This document shows, piece after piece, positions 9,001-26,189 of a stretch of DNA of 26,189 nucleotides. The DNA is taken from IMG/VR virus record IMGVR_UViG_3300031851_000153, positions 1 to 26,189 of that record. One strand, written 5' to 3'. The stretch comes from a virus. A program made the position numbers and the translations under genes. Each line of letters starts with the position of its first letter. Positions within the stretch are counted from its first letter, which is position 1. The notes beneath the pieces were generated by a model. That model did not search any database, was not told the origin of the DNA, and saw nothing but the letters and a program-made list of their open reading frames with translations.

Positions 9001-12000
9001 ATTCTTCTACTGATACATCTGGAGTTATCACAGGTAACAAAGTTAGTATTAGTTGGGATTATCCTTTAAATGCAGATGGGACTAAATATAAATTTGCAAA
9101 TGGTTTTGAACTCGTACATACATTCAACGGAGAAGAAGCTACGGAACTTGTTAATACTATAGATCAAAGCTTCACTGTTAGCAATATTGGGGCAGGGGAG
9201 TATGATGTCCGTATAAGAACAAAAACTGCAATAGGCAGTGTTTCTCAATTTATTAGAAGAACAGTAGAGATAGCAGAAAGTGAGTTTGTAAACCCAGGTG
9301 TTTCTAGAACACAACTATTGCCTAGAGGCGGTAGTTCAAGTAGGAATCTAACAATAGGTGCTTCTACAGGTCTAGCAGAATTTAGTTCTAGTAATTATAG
9401 CCTTACAACTTTAAACGGGGTTACTTTTACAAACGAATCTAGTACTGATACTACATATAAACAAGACTTTTCAAACATGGCTAGTACGGCGTATTTAGTA
9501 TTTAATTCAGTAGATACTACAGATAGATTAAAAGCTTTAGAAATCAAAACAACAGCATCAACACCCTCAGTAGATTATTTTGCAGAAGTAGGTGCAAGTT
9601 CAAATGGTTTTACTACAGATACAGGGACTATTCAAATTGACAAACATTCTAATCAGTTGAATGGTACAAATACTTTATTTACAACAGAGAATAAAGTTGG
9701 TGATTTAATTAAATTAGAAAACGGCTCTACTACTACTTCAGCAACAGCATCAGCAATTACAGAATCAAAAATAGTAACGCTTTCTGCAACTAATAGTAAT
9801 ATTAAAGTAGGGCAAACAGTTACAGGAACTGGAATAGTAGGGATATCTTACGTCGAAAATATAGATGGAACAGCAATTACTTTAGCTAATAAACAAACAA
9901 TTGGTAGCGGAGTTACATTAACATTTACCCCATACTTGAGTGTTAAACGAATTAGATCTATAGAATCAAATACAGTACTATACTTTGAAGAGATAGTAGG
10001 TAGACCTTATTCAGGAACAGCAAAAGCAAGACAATCATATAGGTCAGACTTTACAAATGACGCTATACTTGCAAAAATAGATAAAACAGGTAGTACGTAC
10101 AGCATAGAAGAACTATATGTATCTGCAGGTGGAGAGAAAGGAGACAAAGGTCCATTAGGTCCTAAAGGTGTCGACGGTCCTAAAGGTCAAAGAGGTGTTG
10201 ACGGTCCTAAAGGAGAGCCAGGAGCTGGCGGAGAGAAAGGTGTCAAAGGTGCAGCAGGAGACAAAGGGCCTAAGGGTACTATTGGGGACACAGGAGACAA
10301 AGGAGATATAGGGCAGAAAGGAGACCAAGGTGCTAAAGGATTTGGTGGTGACCAAGGTGTTAAAGGAGCCACAGGACAGAAAGGAGACCAAGGTGCTAAA
10401 GGTATCGTAGGTGCTAAAGGTGGAGCAGGAGCCACAGGACAGAAAGGAGACCAAGGCGATAAAGGTATCGTAGGTGCTAAAGGTGGAGTAGGAGCTGGAG
10501 GACAGAAAGGAGACCAAGGTGCTAAAGGTATCGTAGGTGCTAAAGGTGGAGTAGGTGCTGGAGGACAGAAAGGAGACCAAGGTGCTAAAGGTGAATTGGG
10601 AGTTAAAGGTGGACCAGGTGATGCCGGTGCTAAAGGTGGCGAAGGACAAGTTGGGGACAAAGGTGTTAAAGGTATTAAAGGAGTAGGCGGTCAAACAGGA
10701 GTCAAAGGAGACCCGGGAGACGAAGTATTCCTTATTTATTATGACGGACTAGAAAATGACGCATTAAATGGCAATGCTTCTGTAACTACAACAAGTAAAC
10801 CCCTAGCTCCAGACATGGATGGCGGTTCTAGTGCTATTAGTAATTTGTTTAGATTAACTCAAAAAGATGGGACAGTTACAGATTGGTACACAGAAGCCGC
10901 AGCTTTATCTAATTGGTATTTTGTAGCTTCCGCAGTTACTCCAGGATTATTCCAATCCCCTAGATCTGAGTGGACAGTTAGTGAATACTTACAAGGAGAA
11001 AAAGGACCCCAAGGAGATACAGGACAGAAAGGTGTTGTAGGAGCTAAAGGTGGACCAGGTGCTACAGGTGCTAAAGGAACTACAGGTGCTGGAGGAGATA
11101 AAGGTGCTAAAGGTGTTACAGGTGATGGAGGTGCTAAAGGAGCTACAGGTGCTGGAGGTCAGAAAGGTGCTAAAGGTGGCATAGGTGCTACAGGTGCTAA
11201 AGGTGTTACAGGTGATGGAGGTCAGAAAGGTGCTAAAGGTGGCATAGGTGCTACAGGTGCTAAAGGAACTACAGGTGCTGGAGGTCAGAAAGGTGCTACA
11301 GGTGCTGGAGGAGATAAAGGTGCTAAAGGTGTTACAGGTGATGGAGGCCAGAAAGGTGCTAAAGGTGGCATAGGTGCTACAGGTGCTAAAGGTGTCACAG
11401 GTGATGGAGGTCCAAAAGGTGCACAAGGAGCTGCAGGTGATAAAGGTCAACAAGGTCCTGCGGGAGACAAGGGAATAAAAGGAGTATTAGGTACTCAAGG
11501 ACCAAAAGGTCAAGGTGGAGCTACAGGTGCTAAAGGACAGCCAGGTGCTGCAGGTGCTAAAGGTGGTACTGGTACTGCAGGAGACAAGGGACAGAAAGGT
11601 GTTCTTGGACAAACCGGTGTTAAAGGTGCTGATGGTAGTCCGGGGGCAGATGCTCCTTATGTAGTAATTGGTTTTGATACTACAATTGATACAAATGCAG
11701 AAAGAACCACAGCAATTAAAACCTTCTCAGGATTAAGTGTAGTAAAAGTTAACTCTGTATATTGGGATGCTACAACTGGTGTACCACATCAGAACCAAGC
11801 TAGTGAAGCTTCTAATCCAACACTTACACCACTTACAGGAACAAATGCTCTTATTTCTGCAGACACTATTTCAGTACAAGATTTAATCTTACCCACAACA
11901 GGGTCTAGAGTTAGTGGTAGTATTATTGGTAATTTTAATAATAATTCACTAAGATATGCAGAAGTATGTGAAGTAGGCACAGGAGCAGGATTTTATCAAG

Positions 12001-12694: not shown

Positions 12695-13030
12695 ATGGCA
12701 ATACATAACTTTACATATACATATACACATAAAGAGCTACGAGCTAGAATTGTAAACAATACTAACGTCATTGACAATGTTCGAGTAGAAATCACAGGCA
12801 TAGATAGTGTAGATAATACAAAAACAGCAACTATTGAACAATGGGTAGCTTTTAAAGTAAACCAAAGAATGAATGGGGATATTAGTGATTTTATTCCCAC
12901 CAAACAAGTAACAAACGAAACTATCCAAACTTGGGTACAGCAAATTTATCAAGAGGGAACAACGGCAAGAGAGGGGCTAGATGCTCTTATGACCTTAACA
13001 ATTTTTGGTGATGATGAACTTCAAGCGTAA
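12695..13030 (+). CDS. Small protein of unknown function between J and the fibre cassette
   Basis: 111 residues from an ATG with AGGAG 7 bases upstream, 11 bases after the J stop. The first half looks like beta strands (VDNVRVEITGID, ATIEQWVAFKV), the second like short helices (VTNETIQTWVQQIYQEG, ARREGLD-like segment). There is no signal peptide, membrane segment or cysteine. It has a loose resemblance to small proteins encoded near tail genes in cyanophages, in which beta strands precede a T-x-x-x-x-x-W helix, but I cannot name a family with confidence. Its position suggests a tail or tip accessory, or a chaperone for J. An 87-base gap carrying a promoter follows, so it is probably the last gene of the upstream transcription unit. 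Confidence 0.75.
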   Translation: MAIHNFTYTYTHKELRARIVNNTNVIDNVRVEITGIDSVDNTKTATIEQWVAFKVNQRMNGDISDFIPTKQVTNETIQTWVQQIYQEGTTAREGLDALMTLTIFGDDELQA

Positions 13031-13067
13031 CCTATACAGTTTATGAATCACATCCGAAATTTAATGC

Positions 13068-13096
13068 TTGACTTCACCTCAAGATTTTGATATAAT
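13068..13096 (+). promoter_or_regulatory. Near-consensus sigma-70-type promoter upstream of the fibre cassette
   Basis: TTGACT (13068-13073) and TATAAT (13091-13096) are separated by exactly 17 bases, in the only sizeable non-coding gap of the window (13031-13117). Transcription would begin near 13103, leaving a leader of only about 15 bases, which holds AGGAG (13106-13110) 7 bases before the ATG at 13118. A 5-bp inverted repeat (CTTGA 13067-13071 and TCAAG 13079-13083) overlaps the -35 box and could be an operator, though it is too short to be sure. Confidence 0.75.
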
Positions 13097-13117
13097 TAAT
13101 GCTATAGGAGCAAAATA

Positions 13118-13456
13118 ATGGCAGCAGGTAAATACGATATAGTTATAGATCAAGGTTCAGGTTTCGGCTTGGATCTCGTTGTACAAGAGAGTGGGAGCGC
13201 GAAAGACCTTTCGAGCTATTCCGTTAGGGGACAAATTCGTCCGACAGTTACGTCAGATACGTTAACTGCATCTTTTGTTGGAACTGTAACTGAAGCAAGT
13301 CAAGGAAAAATAAATGTAGCGCTGACTCCTTCAACAACAGCGGCTATGTCAGCAGGTAAATACTTTTATGACGTAGAGGTACATACAAGTGGAGATTCAG
13401 TAGTAACAAGGTTATTACAGGGGACAGCAACAGTTAGTCCAGAAGTTACCAGATAG
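13118..13456 (+). CDS. Small beta-sandwich phage protein, BppU N-terminal-like (tip/fibre accessory)
   Basis: 112 residues from ATG 13118, with AGGAG 7 bases upstream and a strong promoter just before it. The pattern MAAGKYDIVIDQGSGFGLDLV, then SSYSVRGQIRP, a central beta hairpin, AGKYFYDVEVHTSG and the ending RLLQGTATVSPEVTR is a recurrent one in small phage structural proteins. It resembles the N-terminal domain of baseplate upper/receptor-binding-complex proteins (BppU-like). Such proteins adapt fibres to the tail tip. No catalytic motif, cysteine or membrane segment is present. The stop overlaps the GTG of the next gene (TAGTG), so the two are probably co-translated. The structural role is inferred from pattern and context; the family name is a suggestion. 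Confidence 0.75.
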   Translation: MAAGKYDIVIDQGSGFGLDLVVQESGSAKDLSSYSVRGQIRPTVTSDTLTASFVGTVTEASQGKINVALTPSTTAAMSAGKYFYDVEVHTSGDSVVTRLLQGTATVSPEVTR

Positions 13457-13857
13457 TGGCCAAGTCCACAACAATTCAAGCTTCACAGGATGTAGTTGCA
13501 GTAACTATAAATGATAATAATGTTACAGTTAATGTAGTACCGCAGGTAACAGCAATAGAAGTTAGTTCAGCTATCGCAGCCTCGGCTACAGCAATTCCAT
13601 TTACAGGAACAGGTACTTTATCAAGTACAGGTAATATTGGGGATGCTCTACAAGTTTTAGCAGACCAATTTTATGTATCAACAACTCCTCCCCAAGCGGG
13701 AGATACAAATCTAGAAGAAGGTGATTTATTTTATGATACTGACGACAATCAGTTAAAGATCTACCGAGAGACCTCTTCGGGTGTTTTTAGTTTCGTTCCA
13801 ATAATGATTGGTAATGAATCAGCAGACTCAGACACGGTAGACGCAGGAGGCTTTTAA
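13456..13857 (+). CDS. Small tail/fibre accessory protein with a fibre-type motif, GTG start
   Basis: 133 residues from a GTG that overlaps the previous stop by one base (TAGTG); no strong ribosome site precedes it, so coupling is likely. The N-terminal ~50 residues are Val/Thr/Ala-rich beta sequence (DVVAVTINDNNVTVNVV). The second half has a motif common in phage fibre proteins: PPQAGDTNLEEGDLFYDT followed by DNQLKIYRET. It ends in DAGGF, the codons of which form one arm of a small hairpin. No enzyme motif is seen. It probably forms a connector or short fibre piece together with its neighbours, which is inference from context. Confidence 0.72.
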   Translation: MAKSTTIQASQDVVAVTINDNNVTVNVVPQVTAIEVSSAIAASATAIPFTGTGTLSSTGNIGDALQVLADQFYVSTTPPQAGDTNLEEGDLFYDTDDNQLKIYRETSSGVFSFVPIMIGNESADSDTVDAGGF

Positions 13858-13877: not shown

Positions 13878-15809
13878 ATGGCACAAACTATAAAAATTAA
13901 AAGAAGTCAAAATACCGCTGCACCTGGCTCATTAACAGCTGGAGAACTAGCTTATTCACAAGACTCAAATAAACTATTTATTGGTAGACCTTCCGATGGG
14001 AATGTTACAACAATTGGTGGTGACTTATATGTCAACATGCTTGACCATGCTTTAGGAACACTAACAGCAAGCTCAGCAATAACAACAGACGCAAACAATA
14101 AAGTTAATCAACTTAAAACAGCAAATCTTACAATAGGTGGAAATTCTATTTCATCAGGAAGTGGAGACATTGACCTTGTTGCAGCAGGAAATTTAGATAT
14201 TGATGCAGGTACAGTAGACCTCTCAACACAAGCAACAGATTTCAGAATTATAGATAATTCTGCTACTGGCATGACAATCTCAACAGGAGATCATACTTAC
14301 TTAACTTTTGATTCAACCAACACAGCAGAAAAAATATTAGTAGGTAGAACACTAGACATGAATGGTCTAGAATTAGTACTTGACGCAGACGGTGATACAA
14401 GTATTACTGCAGATACAGATGATAGAATAGACTTTAAAATAGGTGGAACAAACGAACTAGCAGTAACAGGCTCAACATTAAGACCTGGCTCAGACCTAAG
14501 TATTGGTCTTGGTACTTCAAGTGTTAGATTTGCAAATGCATTTATAGATAATATAAAAATAGATGGAAATACAATCACATCTGAAAATACAAATGGTAAT
14601 ATTAATATTACACCAAATGGAAGTGGAGCAGTTGTATTAGATGGATTTGCTTTCCCAATAAACGGTTCAGGTTCAAACGGCCAATTCTTGAGACAAGACT
14701 CAAGTGGTAATTTAGAATTTGCTACTGTAGTATCTTCATTAACTCTCTCAGCAGATAGCGGTACAAATGATACTATTAACACAGGTGAAACTTTAACATT
14801 CACAGGTGGAGAAGGAATTGATACAGCCGTAACAAATAATACAATCACTATAGCAGCAGAAGAAGCTACAACAGGTAACTTAGGTGTTGCCTCATTTGCT
14901 ACAGCAAACTTTACAGTAGCTAGTGGACATGTATCTGCAAAAACTATCACACTAGGAAGTACTACACTAACTAATGGTTCAACAACAACAGATTTAGCAG
15001 GTATCACTTCTTTAGTAGTAGATAACTTAACATTAAATGGTTCAACGCTTTCTACTTCTGCAGGCAACAACAATATTGTTCTATCTCCTCATGGAACAGG
15101 AACAGTAACAGTACCTTCAGGATATAAAGATAGATCTGGCTTCAGTACAAACTCTCTAGTAAGTAAAGAGTATGTTGATGCGATCAAACAAAATTTAGAT
15201 ATTAAAGATTCAGTACATTTAGCTTCAACAAGTAATGTATCATTAACAGGAGGTGCTTCAGGACTAGAAGCAGGAGACTCTATTGATGGAGTAGCTCTAG
15301 TAGCAGGAGACAGAGTTCTTCTTAAAAATCAGACAGATGCTTCAGAAAATGGTATTTATGTTGCAGTATCTTCTGGAGGCACTCCAGCAAGATCAACTGA
15401 TGCAAATTCTAATGATAAAGTTAATGCAGGTATGTTCGTATTCGTTGAAGAAGGAACAGTTAATGCAGATAACGGATTTGTTTTAACAACCAACGGAGCA
15501 ATTACTTTAGATAACACTTCTCTAACTTACACACAGTTCTCAGGAGCTGGTCAAATAGTAGCAGGTGATGCATTAAGTAAATCTGCAAACACATTAAATG
15601 TAAATGATGATAACGTAACTATTGAAGTCTCATCAGATGCATTAAGAATTAAAGGAATTTCACAAACAAGAAAAGGAGACTTAATTCTAGGAAAAACAAC
15701 AAATGACGCCGGGTATGACAGATTACCAATCGGAACAGCTGATCAAATATTAACTGTTCAAAGTGGTACATTAGCATACACTAGTACATTAGACGGCGGT
15801 ACATTTTAA
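13878..15809 (+). CDS. Tail fibre-like structural protein with three beta repeats
   Basis: 643 residues, ATG with AGGA 7 bases upstream. The N-terminus (MAQTIKIKRSQNTAA, then LTAGELAYSQDSNKLFIG) is the short anchoring module common in phage fibres and almost repeats the start of the next gene product. The middle holds three copies of a ~30-residue beta repeat of the form N-(L/I)-x-(I/L)-x-G-(N/S)-x-(I/L)-(S/T)-S, then N-I-x-(L/I)-x-P-x-G-(S/T)-G-x-V. The C-terminal third has a module seen in many marine phage fibres: LVSKEYVDAIKQNLDIKDSV, SIDGVALVAGDRVLLKNQTD, ASENGIYVAVSSGG. There is no collagen block and no S74 chaperone. It probably forms a trimeric or baseplate-attached fibre segment that carries or joins the longer fibres. 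The structural role is well supported; the exact position in the virion is not. Confidence 0.82.
   Translation: MAQTIKIKRSQNTAAPGSLTAGELAYSQDSNKLFIGRPSDGNVTTIGGDLYVNMLDHALGTLTASSAITTDANNKVNQLKTANLTIGGNSISSGSGDIDLVAAGNLDIDAGTVDLSTQATDFRIIDNSATGMTISTGDHTYLTFDSTNTAEKILVGRTLDMNGLELVLDADGDTSITADTDDRIDFKIGGTNELAVTGSTLRPGSDLSIGLGTSSVRFANAFIDNIKIDGNTITSENTNGNINITPNGSGAVVLDGFAFPINGSGSNGQFLRQDSSGNLEFATVVSSLTLSADSGTNDTINTGETLTFTGGEGIDTAVTNNTITIAAEEATTGNLGVASFATANFTVASGHVSAKTITLGSTTLTNGSTTTDLAGITSLVVDNLTLNGSTLSTSAGNNNIVLSPHGTGTVTVPSGYKDRSGFSTNSLVSKEYVDAIKQNLDIKDSVHLASTSNVSLTGGASGLEAGDSIDGVALVAGDRVLLKNQTDASENGIYVAVSSGGTPARSTDANSNDKVNAGMFVFVEEGTVNADNGFVLTTNGAITLDNTSLTYTQFSGAGQIVAGDALSKSANTLNVNDDNVTIEVSSDALRIKGISQTRKGDLILGKTTNDAGYDRLPIGTADQILTVQSGTLAYTSTLDGGTF
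14124..15122 (+). repeat. Three spaced copies of a beta repeat within the fibre-like protein
   Basis: Copies at 14124-14189 (partial), 14550-14645 and 15024-15122 encode the same pattern: N-(L/I)-T/K-I/L-x-G-N/S-x-I/L-S/T-S, then a D/N-I-D/N-L/I stretch, with PNGSG or PHGTG in the last two. They are separated by unrelated sequence, so the copies are dispersed rather than tandem. Confidence 0.7.
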
Positions 15810-15855: not shown

Positions 15856-18800
15856 ATGGCACAGACAATCAAACTAAAGAGGTCTAGCGTTGAAGGACGC
15901 GTACCTGGAACTTCAGACTTAGAACTTGGCGAAATCGCCATTAATACCTATGATGGTAAAGTCTATGTAAAGAAGAATGATGGGTCTGATGCCGTTGTAG
16001 AAGTAGGTGCAACAAATAACATTACTACAACTTTTCAAGCATACGACTACACAGCTACAAATAACCAAACCACTTTCTCGGGTAGTGATAATAACTCAAA
16101 CACTTTAGAATATAATACAGGAACTCCTCCTGCTATATCCGTATACATGAATGGTATTCTTCTTGATGAAGGAACCGACTATACAGCAACTTCAGGAACA
16201 AGCATAGTATTACAAGACGCGGCAACTACAGGTGACTTAGTTCATATTCAAGCATATAAATCCGCAGCATCTTTCACATCCGACTTTAGTCTTCCCGACT
16301 CAGTAAAAGTACTGATGGGAGACAGCGATGATTTACAAATTTACCATGACGGTAGTCATAGTTATGTAAGAGATGTTGGAACTGGTAATTTAAGATTACA
16401 AGGTACGAATCTTAATTTACAAAATGCAGGTGGAACAAAAAATTATTTAGTTGCTACTAATAGTGGGGCAGTTACATTATACTATGATAACTCAGGAAAA
16501 CTTGCGACAACATCAGCAGGTGTAAACGTTACAGGAGAGGTAGCAATTAGTGGCTCTCAAGTAATTAACTCTAGTGGGGAATGGACAGGTTCTCAAGCAG
16601 GTATAAAAGGAGATAAAGGATTAAAAGGTCAAAAAGGAGAGGAAGGTCCAACAGGTCCAGGAGGAAGTGTTGGTGGTACTGGTGGAACAGGACCTAAAGG
16701 TCAAAAAGGTGATAAAGGTACTGGCGGTCTTACTGGTAGTAAAGGACAAAAAGGTGAAATAGGAGCTACAGGCCCAACAGGTACTACTGGAAATACAGGT
16801 ACTACAGGTGCTAAAGGTGATACAGGTATAAAAGGAACTACAGGGCAAAAAGGTGCTTTAGGTAATACAGGTCCAACTGGTCTAACTGGTCCAACAGGTG
16901 CTACAGGTGCTAAAGGGCAGAAAGGCGAAATTGGTGTTACAGGTAATACAGGTGGAACAGGTCCAACAGGTGGTAAAGGTCAAAAAGGTGAAATAGGTGT
17001 AGATGGTCCAACAGGTCCAACAGGCAGTACTGGTCCGACAGGTTCTAAAGGCCAGAAAGGAGAAGTAGGCGTAACAGGTTCTACTGGTGCAGTTGGTAGC
17101 AAAGGTCAAAAAGGTGAGATAGGTGCTACAGGTAATACAGGTGGCACAGGTAGTAAAGGTCAAAAAGGTGAAGTAGGTGTAGACGGTCCAACAGGCCCAA
17201 CAGGAGGTAATGGTCCAACAGGTGGTACAGGTCCAACAGGCGGTACTGGTCCAACAGGTCCAACTGGTAGTAAAGGTCAGAAAGGCGAAATAGGAGTTAC
17301 AGGTAATACTGGTCCAACAGGTGGTACTGGTTCAGCAGGTGCTAAAGGTCAGAAAGGTCAGAAAGGAGAAATAGGAGTTACAGGTCCAACAGGAGGTACT
17401 GGAGGTACTGGTGGTGTAGGACCAAAAGGTCAAAAAGGTCAAAAAGGCGAAGTAGGAGTTACAGGTAATACTGGTTCTACTGGTAGTAAGGGTCAGAAAG
17501 GGGAAATAGGAGTTACAGGTAATACTGGAGGAACAGGCCCAACAGGTGGTACTGGTTCAACAGGTAGTAAAGGTCAAAAAGGTGAAATAGGTCAAAAAGG
17601 AACAACAGGTGGTACTGGCCCAACAGGCGGTACTGGTGGTACTGGTCCAACAGGTGGTACTGGTGCAAAAGGTCAGAAAGGTGAATTAGGGCAGAAAGGT
17701 CAGAAAGGTCAAACAGGTAATACAGGTGGTACTGGTCCAACAGGTGGTACTGGTCCAACAGGTGGTACAGGTCCAACAGGTGGTACAGGTCCAAAAGGTC
17801 AAAAAGGTGAGGGCGGTTCTAAAACAACCTACTCAAGTTTAACAGGGTCTAGTGGTGAGTGGTTTCATATTTTAACTGTAGAAGACTCCCACGGCCCAGT
17901 ATTTGCTTCTTTAAATACGTATGCTCATAGTGGAGCATCATTTACCGCTATAAATGGTTATAATCCATCTGCTACAGGCTCATTAACAGTATTAACTACG
18001 AACTATAATGCCAACGGTAGTTATGCAAATGTATCGGGACTAAGAATAAAAGGTGATGGAGCTGTTGAAGCTAAATTGAATTGGAGTAGTGGTCCTAATG
18101 TAAATCTAGAAATTAATGTAAGTAATGCAGACCAAGCTGCTGTATCATTTCCATCAAGTTTAGCTACAGGAACTTCAACTGCAACTGTTGTAGACTCACA
18201 TACTTGGGGTTCAACTAACGGCAGAACTAGTGGTAAAAGTGCTAATTTTAATGATGGCTATTATGTGGATTTCAACCAAGTCATTAATGGTTCTGGTACC
18301 TGGGTAGGCCCGAGTAGTGGGCTCAAAGGTGCTCCAGGTCCAACAGGTCCAACAGGTGGTACAGGCCCAACAGGTGGTACTGGTCCAACAGGTGGTACAG
18401 GCGCAAAAGGTCAAAAAGGTCAAACAGGTGGAACAGGCCCAACAGGAGGTACTGGTCCCGGAGGTGCTAAAGGTCAAAAAGGTGAAGTAGGCGCTACAGG
18501 TTCAACAGGTGGTACTGGTGGTACTGGGGGTACAGGTCCAAAAGGCCAAAAAGGTCAAACAGGTGGAACAGGCCCAACAGGAGCTAAAGGTCAAAAAGGT
18601 GAAGTAGGTGGAACAGGTTCAAAAGGTCAAAAAGGTGCATCTTACACTAATCAAGCAATCTCTTCTGAAGCAAATACTCATTATCTCGGTGGTATAAAAA
18701 TAGCGGCAGAAAACACTGCGCAAAACTATATTGCTTTCTCAGGAACAACAGGTGACCAACCAGGTAACTATAACCACTCTTATATTGGTGAACACATTTA

Positions 18801-20496
18801 CAGTGGCTCAGAAAGTTCTGAATTAGTTTTAGCTAAGTACAATGATATTGAAGGTAGTGCTGGGTCAGACAGAATTAGAATGATTGGTAATAATATTCTG
18901 TTTGATACATATCCAGCAGTTATTACACCATCTACAGGTGCTTCACTACAATCAGCGGTAGGAACAGGAAGTCCTACAACTAGAATGAGAATACGCCAAA
19001 ATGGCGACATTGAGGTTGGTGGCAGTAAATTTATAGACTCAAGCCGCAACCTAAGCAACATTGGCACTATCTCTAGTGGAGTAATAACAGCAACTGGTGG
19101 TAACTCTACAAACTGGAACACAGCTTACGGTTGGGGTAACCACGCTTCTGCTGGCTACAGCACACCTACTGCTAGTGAAACACTTTCAGGGTTTAAAACC
19201 TTTACCAGTGCAAGCGGGATTAAATATTACGGAACTACAGCCTCACCTTTATGGTTAAGCAGATCTAGTGGCACCAATGTAAATATTCGACTAACAAGTG
19301 CGAGTGTTGGCACAACTTATGTAGGGCAAGGAGGGTCTGCTGGAACTTTAAAAGTAGGCACAAGTGCTGATTTGATAGGTGCTGGTAATACAGTTTGGCA
19401 CACAGGCACCTTAACAACTACTAACAAAGCCAATTACGATACTGCTTATTCAAATGCTAGTCAGGCGTTGGGTACAAGTTCAACTCCACAATTTAGTCAA
19501 GTTAAAGCAACATCAAATACAGATGTTACGGGTTATCAGCTAAGATCAAACTTGGAAGTTATATCTGGAGAAAGTTGGTGTACAGCTTTTTATAATTACA
19601 ACTATAATGATGGTGCGCTTTTCTTAAGAAGAAACGCCTCAGATACTGCACTGGCACATTTTCATATCTCTGGGTATAACAACCCAGGGTACGCAGGACA
19701 TACTGATGGTGATGGAATGGTTACTTTGACAAGAAGTACATCTGGCAAAGCTGGAGGAAGTACTTACGCTGGGACAGGTTTACAAAATACCTCGGACTGG
19801 TCTCGTTGGGTTAAAACTGCAGATAGGACTATATTTGAAGATGGTGATGATAAATGGCAATTTGGAGTAGATGGAGATGCCCCACAAATTACTCTAATGT
19901 ATGACGACCATACATCAGGCCCTGTTTGGGACACAGCAATTGAAATTGGAAGAACAAATGAACTTTCACATGGAACAGGGGCACCTAATTCGGTAGCGAC
20001 TGGTGGTTACGGAATGAGTGCTAAAGGAAACTCTGATGGAGCTTTTTTCGGAATTGAGGAATATTCTTCAGGCAACTATAGACCCGTTATAGCTTGGGGT
20101 GATGACGTAACAGATACCCCTTTTATTATTAGATTTAATGGTACTAGTAAATATACACTAGATTACGCAGGTAACTTTACAGCAGTTGGTAATATTACTG
20201 CTTATTCAGATAAAAAACTAAAAGAAAATGTAGAAGTTATTGAAAATGCAGTAGAGAAAGTACAACAAATTAGGGGTGTTACCTTTACAAGAAACGATTT
20301 AAAAGATAAAGAAAAAAGACATACAGGAGTTATAGCGCAGGAAATAGAAAAAGTATTACCAGAAGCAGTAAGCTATGATGAAGAATCAGATACTAAAACC
20401 GTTGCTTACGGAAATGTAGTAGGACTATTAGTAGAAGCAATAAAAGAATTAAAACAAGAAATAGAGGAGTTAAAACGTGGCAAAGACCAAGAATAG
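15856..20496 (+). CDS. Collagen-like tail fibre with C-terminal S74 intramolecular chaperone
   Basis: 1546 residues; ATG with only a weak AGG 11 bases upstream. The N-terminus ([31 protein letters not shown]) repeats the anchor of the preceding gene product. Residues ~50-245 hold fibre modules ([34 protein letters not shown]). Collagen-like blocks fill 249-656 (136 triplets) and 822-929 (36 triplets), around a ~165-residue globular spacer. Residues 930-1450 are beta-rich fibre sequence, including [16 protein letters not shown]. The C-terminus is a Peptidase_S74 chaperone: [11 protein letters not shown] with candidate catalytic Ser1451, then [23 protein letters not shown], and a terminal helix ([18 protein letters not shown]). 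In this family the chaperone drives trimer folding and cuts itself off before the Ser, so the mature fibre would end near residue 1450. The next gene starts inside its 3' end. Confidence 0.92.
16558..16608 (+). repeat. VINSSG-x-W adapter, copy 1 (first fibre, before collagen block 1)
   Basis: Encodes [17 protein letters not shown], directly before the first Gly-X-Y block. Further copies lie at 18277-18327 ([17 protein letters not shown]), 20636-20686 ([17 protein letters not shown]) and 23393-23443 ([17 protein letters not shown]). Each is joined to a collagen block in the same way. Confidence 0.85.
16600..17823 (+). repeat. Collagen-like block 1 of the first fibre, 136 Gly-X-Y triplets
   Basis: Uninterrupted Gly-X-Y over 408 residues. 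A cassette [11 protein letters not shown](I/V) G(V/A)T GNT recurs; QKGE occurs 14 times. Pro appears mainly as GPT, with Thr in the Y position. Bases 17725-17796 hold four tandem copies of an 18-base unit (GGTGGTACTGGTCCAACA and close variants). Confidence 0.95.
18319..18642 (+). repeat. Collagen-like block 2 of the first fibre, 36 Gly-X-Y triplets
   Basis: Uninterrupted Gly-X-Y over 108 residues after the spacer domain. Bases 18355-18408 contain three copies of the same 18-base unit seen near 17725-17796, showing that the two blocks share a repeat ancestor. Confidence 0.95.
20464..20469 (+). promoter_or_regulatory. Ribosome binding site GAGGAG setting the GTG start of the second fibre
   Basis: GAGGAG lies 7 bases before GTG 20477, both inside the last codons of the first fibre gene. 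The reading frame opened by this GTG continues without a stop to the end of the window. Confidence 0.7.
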
Positions 20497-23400
20497 AAAG
20501 TTAGCCGATTTCGGGCGAGATACAGCTCAAGCTGGAAGAATTAAGGATAGAGATTTATACTCTGGAGATAGTCTTGTCTTAGATATCCACTCAACTGGAG
20601 TTGAAGTACACGGGATTATTCAGGTTAATGGAGACACAGTTGTTAACTCATCAGGCGAATGGATAGGGCCACAAGCAGGTATAAAAGGAAGCACAGGTGC
20701 AACAGGTAGTAAAGGACAGAAAGGAGAGGTAGGAGCACAAGGTACTACCGGTCTTAAAGGTGAAGTAGGTATTACAGGTAATACAGGAGCTACAGGTCCA
20801 ACTGGTCCAACAGGTGCTAAAGGGAACACTGGCTTAACAGGAACAACAGGAGAAAAAGGTCAAAAAGGTGTTACAGGTTCTGCAGGTCCAACAGGTTTAA
20901 CGGGTCCAACAGGTCCAACAGGAAGTAAAGGCCAGAAAGGTCAACAAGGAGTTACAGGTTTAAAAGGTGAAGTAGGGGTTCAAGGAGTTACAGGTAATAC
21001 TGGTCCAACAGGAAGTAAAGGTCAAAAAGGAGAAATAGGAGTTACAGGTAATACTGGAGGGACAGGCCCAACAGGTGGTACTGGTTTAACAGGTCCAACA
21101 GGTGGCAAAGGTCAGAAAGGTGAAGTAGGAGCTACAGGTTCAACAGGTGGTACTGGTGGTACTGGTGGTGTAGGGCCAAAAGGTCAAACAGGTCAAAAAG
21201 GGGATACAGGTACTACAGGTAATACAGGAGCTACAGGTTCAAAAGGTCAAAAAGGTGAGATAGGAGTTACAGGTAATACTGGTACTACAGGTAGTAAAGG
21301 TCAAAAAGGTGAAGTAGGTGTTCAAGGTAACACAGGTGCTCAAGGAACTACAGGAAATACAGGTTCAAAAGGTGAAGTAGGTGTTAAAGGTACTACAGGT
21401 TCAAAAGGTCAAAAAGGTGAAATAGGAGCTACAGGAGCTGGAGGTTCAAAAGGTCAGAAAGGAGAATTAGGAGTTACAGGTAATACTGGCGGTACGGGTC
21501 CAACAGGTAATACTGGTCCAACAGGTAGTAAAGGAGATAAGGGTCAAAAAGGAATAGTAGGAGCAGGGGGACCAACAGGTGGTATAGGTCCAACAGGTGG
21601 TACTGGTCCAACAGGAGCAAAAGGTCAAAAAGGTGAAATAGGAGTTACAGGTAATACCGGTGCTAAAGGTACAACAGGTAATACAGGTGGTACAGGTTCA
21701 AAAGGTCAAAAAGGAGAAATAGGAGTTAAAGGTGCTACAGGTACTAAAGGACAAAAGGGTGAAACAGGCGGTATAACAGGAATAGCAAACTTTGCAGACA
21801 ATCGTTTATTAACTGCGGCAACTTCTTCTACAATCAATGCTGAATCAGGCTTAACATTCGATGGATCTACTTTAGGTATAAGTGGTGCGGCAGATGAAAT
21901 CTTAGTACTCAACTCAACTGATGATGGTGCTATTTATATGGCGTTTAAAAGAAATTCTGACCGTCACGCTTATGTAGGTTTTGGTGGTGGTGGCGATACA
22001 TTTAATATAATGAACGAAGAAACTGGAGGGACATTACAGTTTGGTACTGCTGGTTCAACAAGGCTTACTATCAGTAATACAGGGGATGCTAACTTCACAG
22101 GAGATGTCACAATAAATGGGTATCTTCAACACTATGATTACTTATACTCAAGACAAAGTTTAAGAGTATTAAATTCAGCTGGAAATGGTTGGCATGACTG
22201 GGCTACAAGAGGTGGCGGCAAGTTTGATCTAAATGTAAATAATATCGTATCAGCAACTATAAACACAGGAACTATCTCTAGTGGTGCAATCACATCCACA
22301 GGCATTATAACAGCAGGTAGTGGGCAAGGCGGTGTTTCGCTTACCCATAATGATGGTTATGGTAATGCAAACGTAACTTTTAACCATAAATCAGGCGTAC
22401 CTGAGCAAAACGGGCAAGCTGCTCGTATAGCTGTTAATACAGATGGAACAGGAACTCAGGGCATTATAGAGTTTGAAGTGTCATCATCAGATGTAACGTC
22501 AGGAACCGCGGTAAATATTACAACAGCAATGGTTTTGGCACATGACTTTGTTGAAATACCGCAATATATATACCATCACAACGATACTGATACTTATCTT
22601 AGATTTACTAGTGATAGGGTAAGGCTTTTTGCAGGTGGTGCAAGTGTATTTGATGGCAGTGGTCAAGACATAAGATTAGGCAATAAGGTTCAAATTGGTG
22701 ATACAGATAGCCAAAATGCTTTTGGATTTTTACAAGTAAACCAAACAGCAAATAATGATGAATCTGGTATAGCTATACTAGATTCAACAAACGCAAGGTC
22801 AATGAGACTTTGGGTAGATGAAACAACTTCATATATTAATTCAGGCAATGGCGGTGGTGCTAGTTTAGTTCTTAATGAAGCGATAACAATTAGTTCTGGT
22901 GGTAACTTAACTGGAGCTGGAAATATAAGAACTGCAGATGGTACTAATAGCTCAGTATCTTATGGATTTACTGGTGATGTTAATACTGGTATGTATAGCC
23001 CTGCAGATTCTGAATTAGGGTTTACTACAAACGGCGGCCAAAGATTAAAACTAGATTCTACTGGTGCTACTGTAACAGGAGACATAGTAGTTTCAGGAAC
23101 AGCTACGCTTTCTGGAGATGCAGCCACAGGAACTAATGCACTAAATATACTTGGTTTAAACAATGGTAACGGTACTGGTATTACATTCTCTGATAACGGT
23201 ACGCCACCCGTTTCTGCATCTGGTCAAAATGGTTATTTAACATATTATCATGGTGATGGTCAGTCTTATGGATCTGGAAATGTATTTATATTTAGTAGTA
23301 GTGAAGCTACTACAACTATTCTTGCTGATGGTAAGTTAATGTTTAAAGAGGGTGTGTATGTAAAACCTTCAAGTGGAACAGGTGCAGGAACACAAGTTAT

Positions 23401-26189
23401 TAACTCCTCAGGTGTTTGGACAGGGCCAAGCACTGGTCTTAAAGGTGAAGTAGGGCCTACAGGTTCAAAAGGTCAAAAAGGTGAAGTAGGTGTTACAGGT
23501 GGAACAGGAGCTAAAGGTCCAACAGGTGGAACAGGTCCTAAAGGTCCAACAGGTGGAACAGGTTCAAAAGGTCAGAAAGGTGAAATAGGCCCTCAAGGTG
23601 GTATAGGGGGTAGTGGTGGAGTAGGTCCAAAAGGTCCAACAGGTGCTACAGGTCAAAAAGGTGAAGTAGGTGCTACAGGTCCAAAAGGCCCAACAGGTTC
23701 AAAAGGTGCTACAGGTGCTACAGGTCCAAAAGGTCCAACAGGGGCTACAGGTGCAAAAGGTCCAACAGGTCAAAAAGGTGCTACAGGTGCTACAGGTCAA
23801 AAAGGTGAAGTAGGTGCTACAGGTCCAAAAGGCCCAACAGGTGCTGCAGGTGCAAAAGGTTCAACAGGTGCTACAGGTCCAAAAGGCCCAACAGGTGCTA
23901 CAGGTCTAAAAGGTCCAACAGGTGCTACAGGTCCAAAAGGTCCAACAGGTGCTACAGGTCCAAAAGGTCCAACAGGTGCTACAGGTCCAAAAGGCCCGAC
24001 AGGTGGAACAGGTGCTAAAGGTTCAACAGGTGCTAAAGGTCCAACAGGTACAAAAGGTCAGAAAGGTGGTGATGCTACAGACGCATCAAGTCTTTCCTCT
24101 GGAACTGTACCACTTGCTAGAATACCAGAATTTTTAGAAGAAAAGTATATTTACTCAAGTAATGATTCCAATGGTGTTTACATGCCGATGGTAAAAGGGG
24201 GCATGTATTCAACAGGCTCTTCTTCAATCACAGGAGCGATTAAAATAAAAGTTCCAAATGCTATGGCCGCCGGCAACAACATGATGAATTTCTTTGTTGA
24301 CATTTATGAGTATGCTACTGGTGAAACAATGACTTTCCGTATTTCTGGATATACGTATAGTAGTCAAACTTGGCATAATGTTTCTGCAATTAATTTATCA
24401 GATAATAACGACCGTGACTTTACTGTACGATTCTATGGAAATGAGAGTAATGATACTTCCTATGTAGCAATTGGTGAAACAAACAGTACTTGGACTTACC
24501 CCCAAGTAATTGTTCGAGATTTTTTTGGCGGATATAACACTTCAGAAGCTGAATCACAAGGAACTTGGGAAGTAAGCTTTGTTACTTCTTTTGATGGAAC
24601 GCTTCGTCATTCACGAACCGACAACTTCCCTGCTAGAAGTGTAGGCGATAAAGGATCCACAGGTGCTAAAGGTCCAACAGGTGCGAAAGGTCCGACAGGT
24701 TCAAAAGGTCAAAAAGGTGCTGCAGGTGCAAGTGTTACAGGTGCGAAAGGTGCTACAGGTGCGAAAGGTGCTGCAGGTGCTAAAGGTGCTGCAGGGGCTA
24801 AAGGAGCTGCAGGTGCTAAAGGTCAAAAAGGTGCTGCAGGTGCAAGTGTTACAGGTGCTAAAGGAGCCACAGGTGGCAAAGGTCAAAAAGGTGAAGGCGG
24901 ATTAACTACAACCAATGCAACTACTTTAGACAGTAAAACTTGGGACTCTTTAGATAAAAATATAGGTGCGCATAATTTTAATGTAGATGCAGGTAACTTA
25001 CAAGGACTTAGATTTTGGAATGGAAGTAACTCTTATAGAATTTCAATGGCAAGTAGTGGCACATCTGGAGCTGGTAGAGTAGTAGGAGAAACTACATCCG
25101 ACTACAATATGTACTTTAAAATGACAGGAGGAACAAATAGAGGTTTTGTTTTCCAAAATGGTACTACTAACGTAGCAGGTATTGACTCAGGCGGGAATGT
25201 ACGTGCGTATAGATACTATGGAAAGGTAACTGCTTCAGGAGATGGACAAGCAAATGTGCCATTTAGACTAGATACTGATTATAACTCTTATATGATTACC
25301 ACTGCAGGTAGTACATGGGGACTATTCTGGGCAGGAAATAGTGGAGCAAGATACGGAACAAATGGTAATGGAGGTCCTGGAAATATATGGGGCAACTCAG
25401 GTAATCCAAATGAATTCTGTTTTGTAGGTAGCGATAACACTGCATGGACATGTTATGGTAATAACGGAAATACTTGGCAGGCTGGTCGAATAACATGTGA
25501 TTCAATATGGCCCGATAAATATGGCACACCTCAAGGTATGGCAGCTCCAAGATATGATAACTCTTTCTATGTTCTTCAATCTCAACATTGGTATGGGCAT
25601 ACAAGTAGTCAAACCCTGTATTTAGGAGAAGCAGGAAACACAACTATTATTAGAGGACCGCTTACAACAGCAGGTATTACATCAAGTTATGGTTTAGCTA
25701 TGACTGGTGGGGCAACAAACTTCTTAATGTATAATAATGCTAATGAGAATCTTTTATATATGAGAGATACATCAGCAGGTGCTATGATTACAACTTGGGA
25801 AAAAACCCTATTTAGAGTAAACAAAGATTTTGTCGCTAATAGTACAGCAACATTTAACGGAGATATATATGGTAAGTCAGTAAACAATGCTCATTCTGCT
25901 CTGTATAGATTTGGAGGTATTTACTTTACATGGGATTCAGATTCTTATGGTACAAACACACATCATTGCATTAGGTCTACTGATGGCGATACTTACGGTG
26001 ACCATATAACGTTAAATTCTTTTGGAAATGTAAGAATTAATTTTGACTCTAACTCAAATGGAACTAACTACTTTAGAATAGGGCATGCAACTACTGGTAC
26101 TGGTAATGTACTATTAACACTAGACGAGTCAGGAAACGGTACATTTGCTGGGAACGTTACAGCTTACTCAGACGAAAGATTAAAAGAAA
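20477..26189 (+). CDS. Second giant collagen-like tail fibre, 3' end outside window, S74 chaperone beginning at the edge
   Basis: I followed this frame codon by codon from GTG 20477 to the last base: at least 1904 residues without a stop. The start overlaps the first fibre gene by 20 bases. The ~67-residue N-terminus ([41 protein letters not shown]) differs from the MAQTIK anchors of its neighbours. Collagen-like blocks lie at residues 68-433, 987-1199 and ~1390-1474. Between them are beta-rich fibre regions ([33 protein letters not shown]; a jelly-roll-like stretch about 1215-1385). Residues ~1475-1890 are a beta-rich distal domain with several Trp and Cys. The last visible residues, AYSDERLKE, match the first residues of an S74 chaperone with candidate catalytic Ser1898, so about 100 more residues are expected. 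Receptor binding most likely involves the region before the chaperone. Confidence 0.92.
20678..21775 (+). repeat. Collagen-like block 1 of the second fibre, 122 Gly-X-Y triplets
   Basis: Uninterrupted Gly-X-Y over 366 residues, built from the same GSK GQK GE(I/V) G(V/A)T GNT cassettes as the first fibre. Bases 21032-21086 match 17503-17557 of the first fibre with one mismatch in 55. Confidence 0.95.
23435..24073 (+). repeat. Collagen-like block 2 of the second fibre, 71 Gly-X-Y triplets, strongly basic
   Basis: Uninterrupted Gly-X-Y over 213 residues, with 26 Lys and 6 acidic residues. Bases 23876-24010 contain five tandem copies of a 27-base unit encoding G(P/L)K GPT G(A/G)T. Confidence 0.95.
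24644..24898 (+). repeat. Collagen-like block 3 of the second fibre, interrupted twice
   Basis: About 85 residues of Gly-X-Y in which the phase is broken twice at the same sequence, [13 protein letters not shown]: two extra residues (VT) stand between triplets. The parts on either side are otherwise regular ([12 protein letters not shown]). Confidence 0.9.

Follow-up and report, generated by a model that had tools for sequence, protein, structure and literature searches.

The gap before the tail-fibre module

The window, which is the whole 26,189-base IMG/VR virus record analysed here, carries a tail-fibre module on its forward strand. The module opens with a gene for a 112-amino-acid (aa) fibre-assembly-like (LtfA-like) protein (13118–13456), which has hits to phrog_1084, of unknown function, and to phrog_3304, annotated as L-shaped tail fibre assembly. 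A profile built from 18 relatives matches T5.135, the gene immediately before ltf in T5, with a probability of 93.5% and an E-value of 2.3e-7. On the same strand follow a 133-aa gene with no assigned function (13456–13857), a gene for a 643-aa fibre-like protein with matches to tail fibre, structural and unknown PHROGs (13878–15809), and a gene for a 1546-aa fibre that contains collagen repeats and carries a Peptidase_S74 chaperone domain at its C-terminus (15856–20496). Collagen-like repeat coding with raised GC and GC skew occupies positions 10001–12000, 16001–18000 and 20001–26000, and these repeats give many cross-matches between fibre genes. Upstream of the module lies a forward gene with a weak match to DUF7936 (12695–13030).

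The 87-nucleotide (nt) gap between this gene and the module (13031–13117) is the widest between forward genes, the runner-up being 46 nt. Within it, the forward strand reads as a sigma70-type promoter: a −35 box TTGACT (13068–13073) is followed after a 17-nt spacer by a −10 box TATAAT (13091–13096) with an extended −10 TG (13088–13089), and an A-tract (AAA, 13057–13059) lies as an UP-like element 9–11 nt 5′ of the −35 box. The first base after the −10 box, at 13097, is a T, referred to below as the late-type discriminator. From the usual 6–8 nt distance to the −10 box, transcription is predicted to start at 13103–13104, and a ribosome-binding site AGGAG (13106–13110) precedes the ATG at 13118. 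A sequence-only reading of the window had picked out this near-consensus pair in a real gap before a good ribosome site, and we find the same, with a score of 11/12 for 13068–13096 against a sigma70 consensus that may not be the host's.

No forward terminator-like site was found between 12700 and 13118, so the fibre promoter lacks the terminator on either side that defines a moron. Rfam gave zero matches in the window or in two phage stretches.

The phage is, to judge from its relatives' genes, a marine T5-like one. Of 25 T5 proteins tried, only pb2 is matched by the window itself, as expected of a tail-gene fragment; positions 1–546, the start of a cut tape-measure ORF, resemble this pore-forming tail tip protein (33%). 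The nearest long contig, G002, aligns collinearly with the window, at 85% along 10.6 kb and 80% along 5.9 kb, and matches 12 of the 25 proteins (ligA, ligB, D5, D6, pri, pol, pb2, pb6, pb8, prohead protease, portal and terL). Contig G008 carries the split DNA ligase typical of T5, keeps its early genes in T5 order from ligA to D15 and has early and late genes on opposite strands; T5 homologues thus stand in conserved order. The ribonucleotide reductase region of G008 is about 66–68% identical in DNA to Pelagibacter phages, a similarity that can serve only as a hint to the host. Among 20 G008 proteins scanned, none is named as an integrase or repressor. The earlier suggestion that the fibres might be expressed outside the late programme, for example in a prophage, finds no support here, the relatives being T5-like contigs.

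Conservation of the boxes and change of the upstream neighbour

Promoter-like sites are common in this AT-rich DNA. Between 10000 and 20000 we count 19 sites scoring at least 9/12, against 21.3 expected, so the score by itself proves little; one of the 19 reaches 11/12, and the site at 13068–13096 is the sole one of at least 11/12 in the whole window. Conservation was not judged from pattern matches: relatives were fetched by protein similarity alone (35 loci and the best 80 of 511 confirmed), giving with the window 116 rows and 80 distinct sequences, and sequences containing the boxes that came from a pattern search were kept out of all conservation counts. In this set, a sigma70 promoter scoring at least 11/12 lies within 120 nt upstream in 76 of the 80 distinct sequences, whereas the chance rate is 62 in 22,800 Markov-shuffled upstreams. 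The four sequences without one (L033–L036) are the most distant among the matches listed, with protein identity of at most 39%. The boxes are hence conserved where the gap is, the outcome on which the sequence-only reading had staked its claim, and a sigma70-type promoter does stand between the upstream tail genes and the fibre module.

Among the matches listed, the 76 fibre promoters differ little in their core. TTGAC is fixed in all 76 (53 TTGACA and 23 TTGACT), the −10 box is TATAAT in 75, the extended −10 is TG in 53 with its G present in 74, and the spacer is 17 nt in 73 and 18 nt in 3; the −10 box stands 19–34 nt before the ATG. In the 73 whose spacer is 17 nt, again among the matches listed, the AAA of the A-tract is kept at 99–100%. 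The boxes of these 73 carry about 1.9–2.0 bits per column, the spacer 0.81 and the far upstream region 0.25. The columns that stand out as conserved are those of the A-tract, of the C preceding the −35 box, of TTGAC, of the extended −10 G, and of TATAAT with its following T. Such near-consensus hexamers at 16–18 nt, conserved as boxes, are those of a sigma70 promoter.

The surrounding DNA has changed far more. Over 2,362 pairs with protein identity below 75% (mean 49%), identity is 99.8% in the core boxes, compared with 39% at fourfold sites, 48% in the spacer and 35% far upstream. The boxes are thus nearly invariant while neutral sites are saturated, which argues that the promoter is under selection, and a pattern confined to the boxes is what selection on a sigma70 promoter would be expected to leave. 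That the site is a functionless chance match in AT-rich DNA, as the chance-level count of weaker sites might suggest, is already contradicted by this conservation in 76 of 80 distinct sequences (among the matches listed), and we give that explanation practically no weight.

Two further elements did not hold up. The inverted repeat CTTGA-N7-TCAAG over the −35 box (13067–13083; arms 13067–13071 and 13079–13083), in which the sequence-only reading saw a hint of control, is present in the window; it occurs in only 20 of the 76 fibre promoters among the matches listed, and we reject it as an operator or general control element. An ACCT in the spacer, considered as a conserved element, proved to be partly an artefact of the search pattern, the spacer varying widely in the protein-fetched sequences.

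The gene on the upstream side varies between relatives. A nearest long upstream ORF could be picked for 79 of the 80 sequences, and blastp sorts these ORFs into 17 groups, 13 of which include members with the promoter; this is a rough guide, as the largest group is inflated by collagen-type repeats and the chosen ORF is not always the immediate neighbour. Several unrelated upstream gene families precede the same promoter and fibre-assembly gene. DNA similarity to seven distant contigs (G005, G006, G008, G009, G014, G016 and G019) resumes at 13067, immediately 5′ of the −35 box, and similarity to four others (G015, G017, G018 and G020) begins 10–45 bases before that point.

This switching of upstream genes right beside the block, with similarity to distant contigs resuming at its edge, is what one might expect if the block were kept mainly as a recombination joint between exchangeable modules, its promoter activity being secondary. 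A joint maintained by homology should be conserved without interruption, however, and here spacer and leader drift (identity 0.48 in the spacer, 0.998 in the boxes), which counts against a joint; moreover, the same motif recurs before unrelated genes, the extended form heading many operons on the same contigs. We consider a joint very unlikely. A bacterial origin of the promoter block was also considered and rejected: the block has 9 scattered matches in genome_contigs, none marine-titled. Nor was a cultured phage with the same block found, the matches being insignificant.

The reading that we favour, with a probability of roughly 0.8, is that the site is a T5-type late promoter for the host sigma70 polymerase, heading the tail-fibre module. 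Host polymerase would bind the A-tract, the TTGAC −35 box and the extended −10 box and would start transcription near 13103–13104, leaving a leader of about 14 nt. The transcript would open with the small LtfA-like assembly gene and continue into the fibre genes. This output would add to readthrough from the upstream tail genes and need not replace it. On this evidence the promoter is probably active, and its position, its strand and one base suggest activity late in infection; fibre output would then not depend on which gene sits upstream.

The base after the −10 box in early and late promoters

The one base is the discriminator at 13097. We tallied it in 14 contigs at sites with TTGAC, a score of at least 11/12 and a spacer of 17–18 nt outside ORFs longer than 300 nt, entering identical sites once and assigning blocks by strand majority. 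In these contigs the fibre promoters have T in 8 of 8, and early-strand promoters have A in 80 of 85. Other late-strand sites in the late block have T in 9 of 10 and A in 1 of 10. Late-strand sites in early or mixed blocks (n = 21) have A in 12, T in 4, C in 4 and G in 1, a distribution at odds with a rule based simply on strand. When sites are grouped by the gene that follows, A is the base in 30 of 30 early-strand groups, one of them tied, and T in 3 of 3 late-block groups; the Fisher p value of 1.8e-4 for this split is indicative, since several contigs are closely related and blocks were assigned by strand majority. Early groups that are A throughout include ligA (9/9), ligB (10/10) and primase (10/10).

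The tied group is the Hsp20 region (n = 12), with 6 A and 6 T. At G008 5407 and 5592, and at their counterparts, two promoters stand in tandem, the −10 box being followed by A in one and by T in the other, and they look as if used in both phases.

These counts bear on whether the fibre promoter might instead be early, so that fibre production would begin as soon as infection does, to allow for the slow folding of long trimeric fibres. Its core, A-tract and spacing are identical to those of the early promoters of these phages. The base after the −10 box is not: it is T in 75 of the 76 fibre promoters of the protein-fetched set, among the matches listed, as against the A of early-strand sites, and the gene groups divide in the same way. 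The T5 counterpart, P-G25, is late, its transcripts and those of P-J5 being reported as such from primer extension (PMC7472727). We therefore regard early use as improbable. The same base tells against expression outside the late programme, as it is common to late-block promoters and not to early ones.

A broader proposal, which we put forward tentatively and at somewhat less than even odds, is that in marine T5-like phages, where the sigma70 promoters are otherwise nearly identical, the discriminator sets the time class. TATAAT followed by A would be early and TATAAT followed by T late (the fibre module, the head operon and the operon before terminase), with CGGCGC/GGGCGC perhaps marking a third class. 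One or a few bases would then decide at what time each promoter is used by the same polymerase, as altered by phage factors (a D5 homologue, for example). Among the open-literature matches listed, no paper dealt with the fibre promoter or with an A/T discriminator code.

Near the early/late junction we also see a small set of sigma70-like sites with a GC-rich discriminator (TATAATCGGCGC / GGGCGCC), at G002 52896, G015 22290, G016 21036 and 21481, and G017 79536. The transcripts of those in G016 and G017 would carry TCGTTTCGTTACTGCACTG repeats and may be non-coding.

Comparison with T5 and other phages

The site is a real promoter under selection, sensibly placed and of a sort already known from T5; what was not expected is that the discriminator base divides early from late promoters. 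In a group of marine T5-like phages, the genes for host recognition thus appear to make up a separate transcription unit behind a nearly invariant host-type promoter. Such a unit would hold whichever gene lies upstream and would let fibre modules be swapped without loss of expression. The A/T split also makes the question of class switching in T5 simple to test.

All three T5 promoter classes are described as using host sigma70, and early and late promoters as differing mainly in the discriminator, with ATATT in the early ones (PMC7472727). The abstract of that study calls the mechanism of class switching unknown, and its discussion points to the discriminator (PMC7472727). AT-rich upstream stretches and 17–18-nt spacers are reported for the promoters of the T5-like phage AKFV33 (PMC3326045). 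The annotated T5 promoters that we extracted show the same A-tract and spacing, and the fibre promoter belongs with this family by its A-tract, 17–18-nt spacer, TATAAT and T5-like genome. It departs from it in the −35 box, which in most annotated T5 early promoters is TTGCTT or TTGCTA and here is TTGACA or TTGACT in 76 of 76 (among the matches listed). By its late block, its late strand and the lack of an early-type discriminator, it would fall into the T5 late class.

The promoters annotated in the tail region of T5 include P-G25, which lies behind pb2, and P-J5. With these two sigma70 promoters inside the T5 late tail region, the premise of the sequence-only reading, a single distant late promoter usually serving the late tail genes, fails for T5-like phages. 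P-G25 resembles the fibre promoter in being of sigma70 type, scoring 11/12 with a 17-nt spacer, an A-rich upstream stretch and a short leader, and in its place within the late tail region, where it follows the pb2 (tape-measure) gene. It sits between pb2/D18-19 and the next tail genes, with same-strand genes down to ltf, and is kilobases before T5.135 and ltf, whereas the window promoter touches the fibre module itself. The −35 box is TTGATA in P-G25 and TTGACA in P-J5, against TTGACT in the window, and the −10 box is followed by A in P-G25 and G in P-J5, against T. Because these T5 late promoters lack the T, the A/T mark would be peculiar to the marine group.

In Vibrio phage D149 (114 kb), the fibre-assembly gene has a distant homologue that bears the annotation L-shaped tail fibre protein assembly. 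The 123-nt gap before it (L303 3851–3973) holds a terminator-like hairpin and TTGACT-17-TATAGT, a weaker promoter match (10/12) than that of the window, and protein identity is only 25%. In the marine T4-like phages HTVC008M and Melnitz-1 and in contig L034, the T4-type late motif TATAAATA stands directly before the homologous gene, a T4-type element and not a −35/−10 pair as in the window; it is absent there in P-HM2, S-SSM7, ACP17 and AG-345-E02, four of the six named records. Its presence before the homologous gene weakly suggests that the fibre-assembly gene often starts a late transcription unit under whichever system the phage uses.
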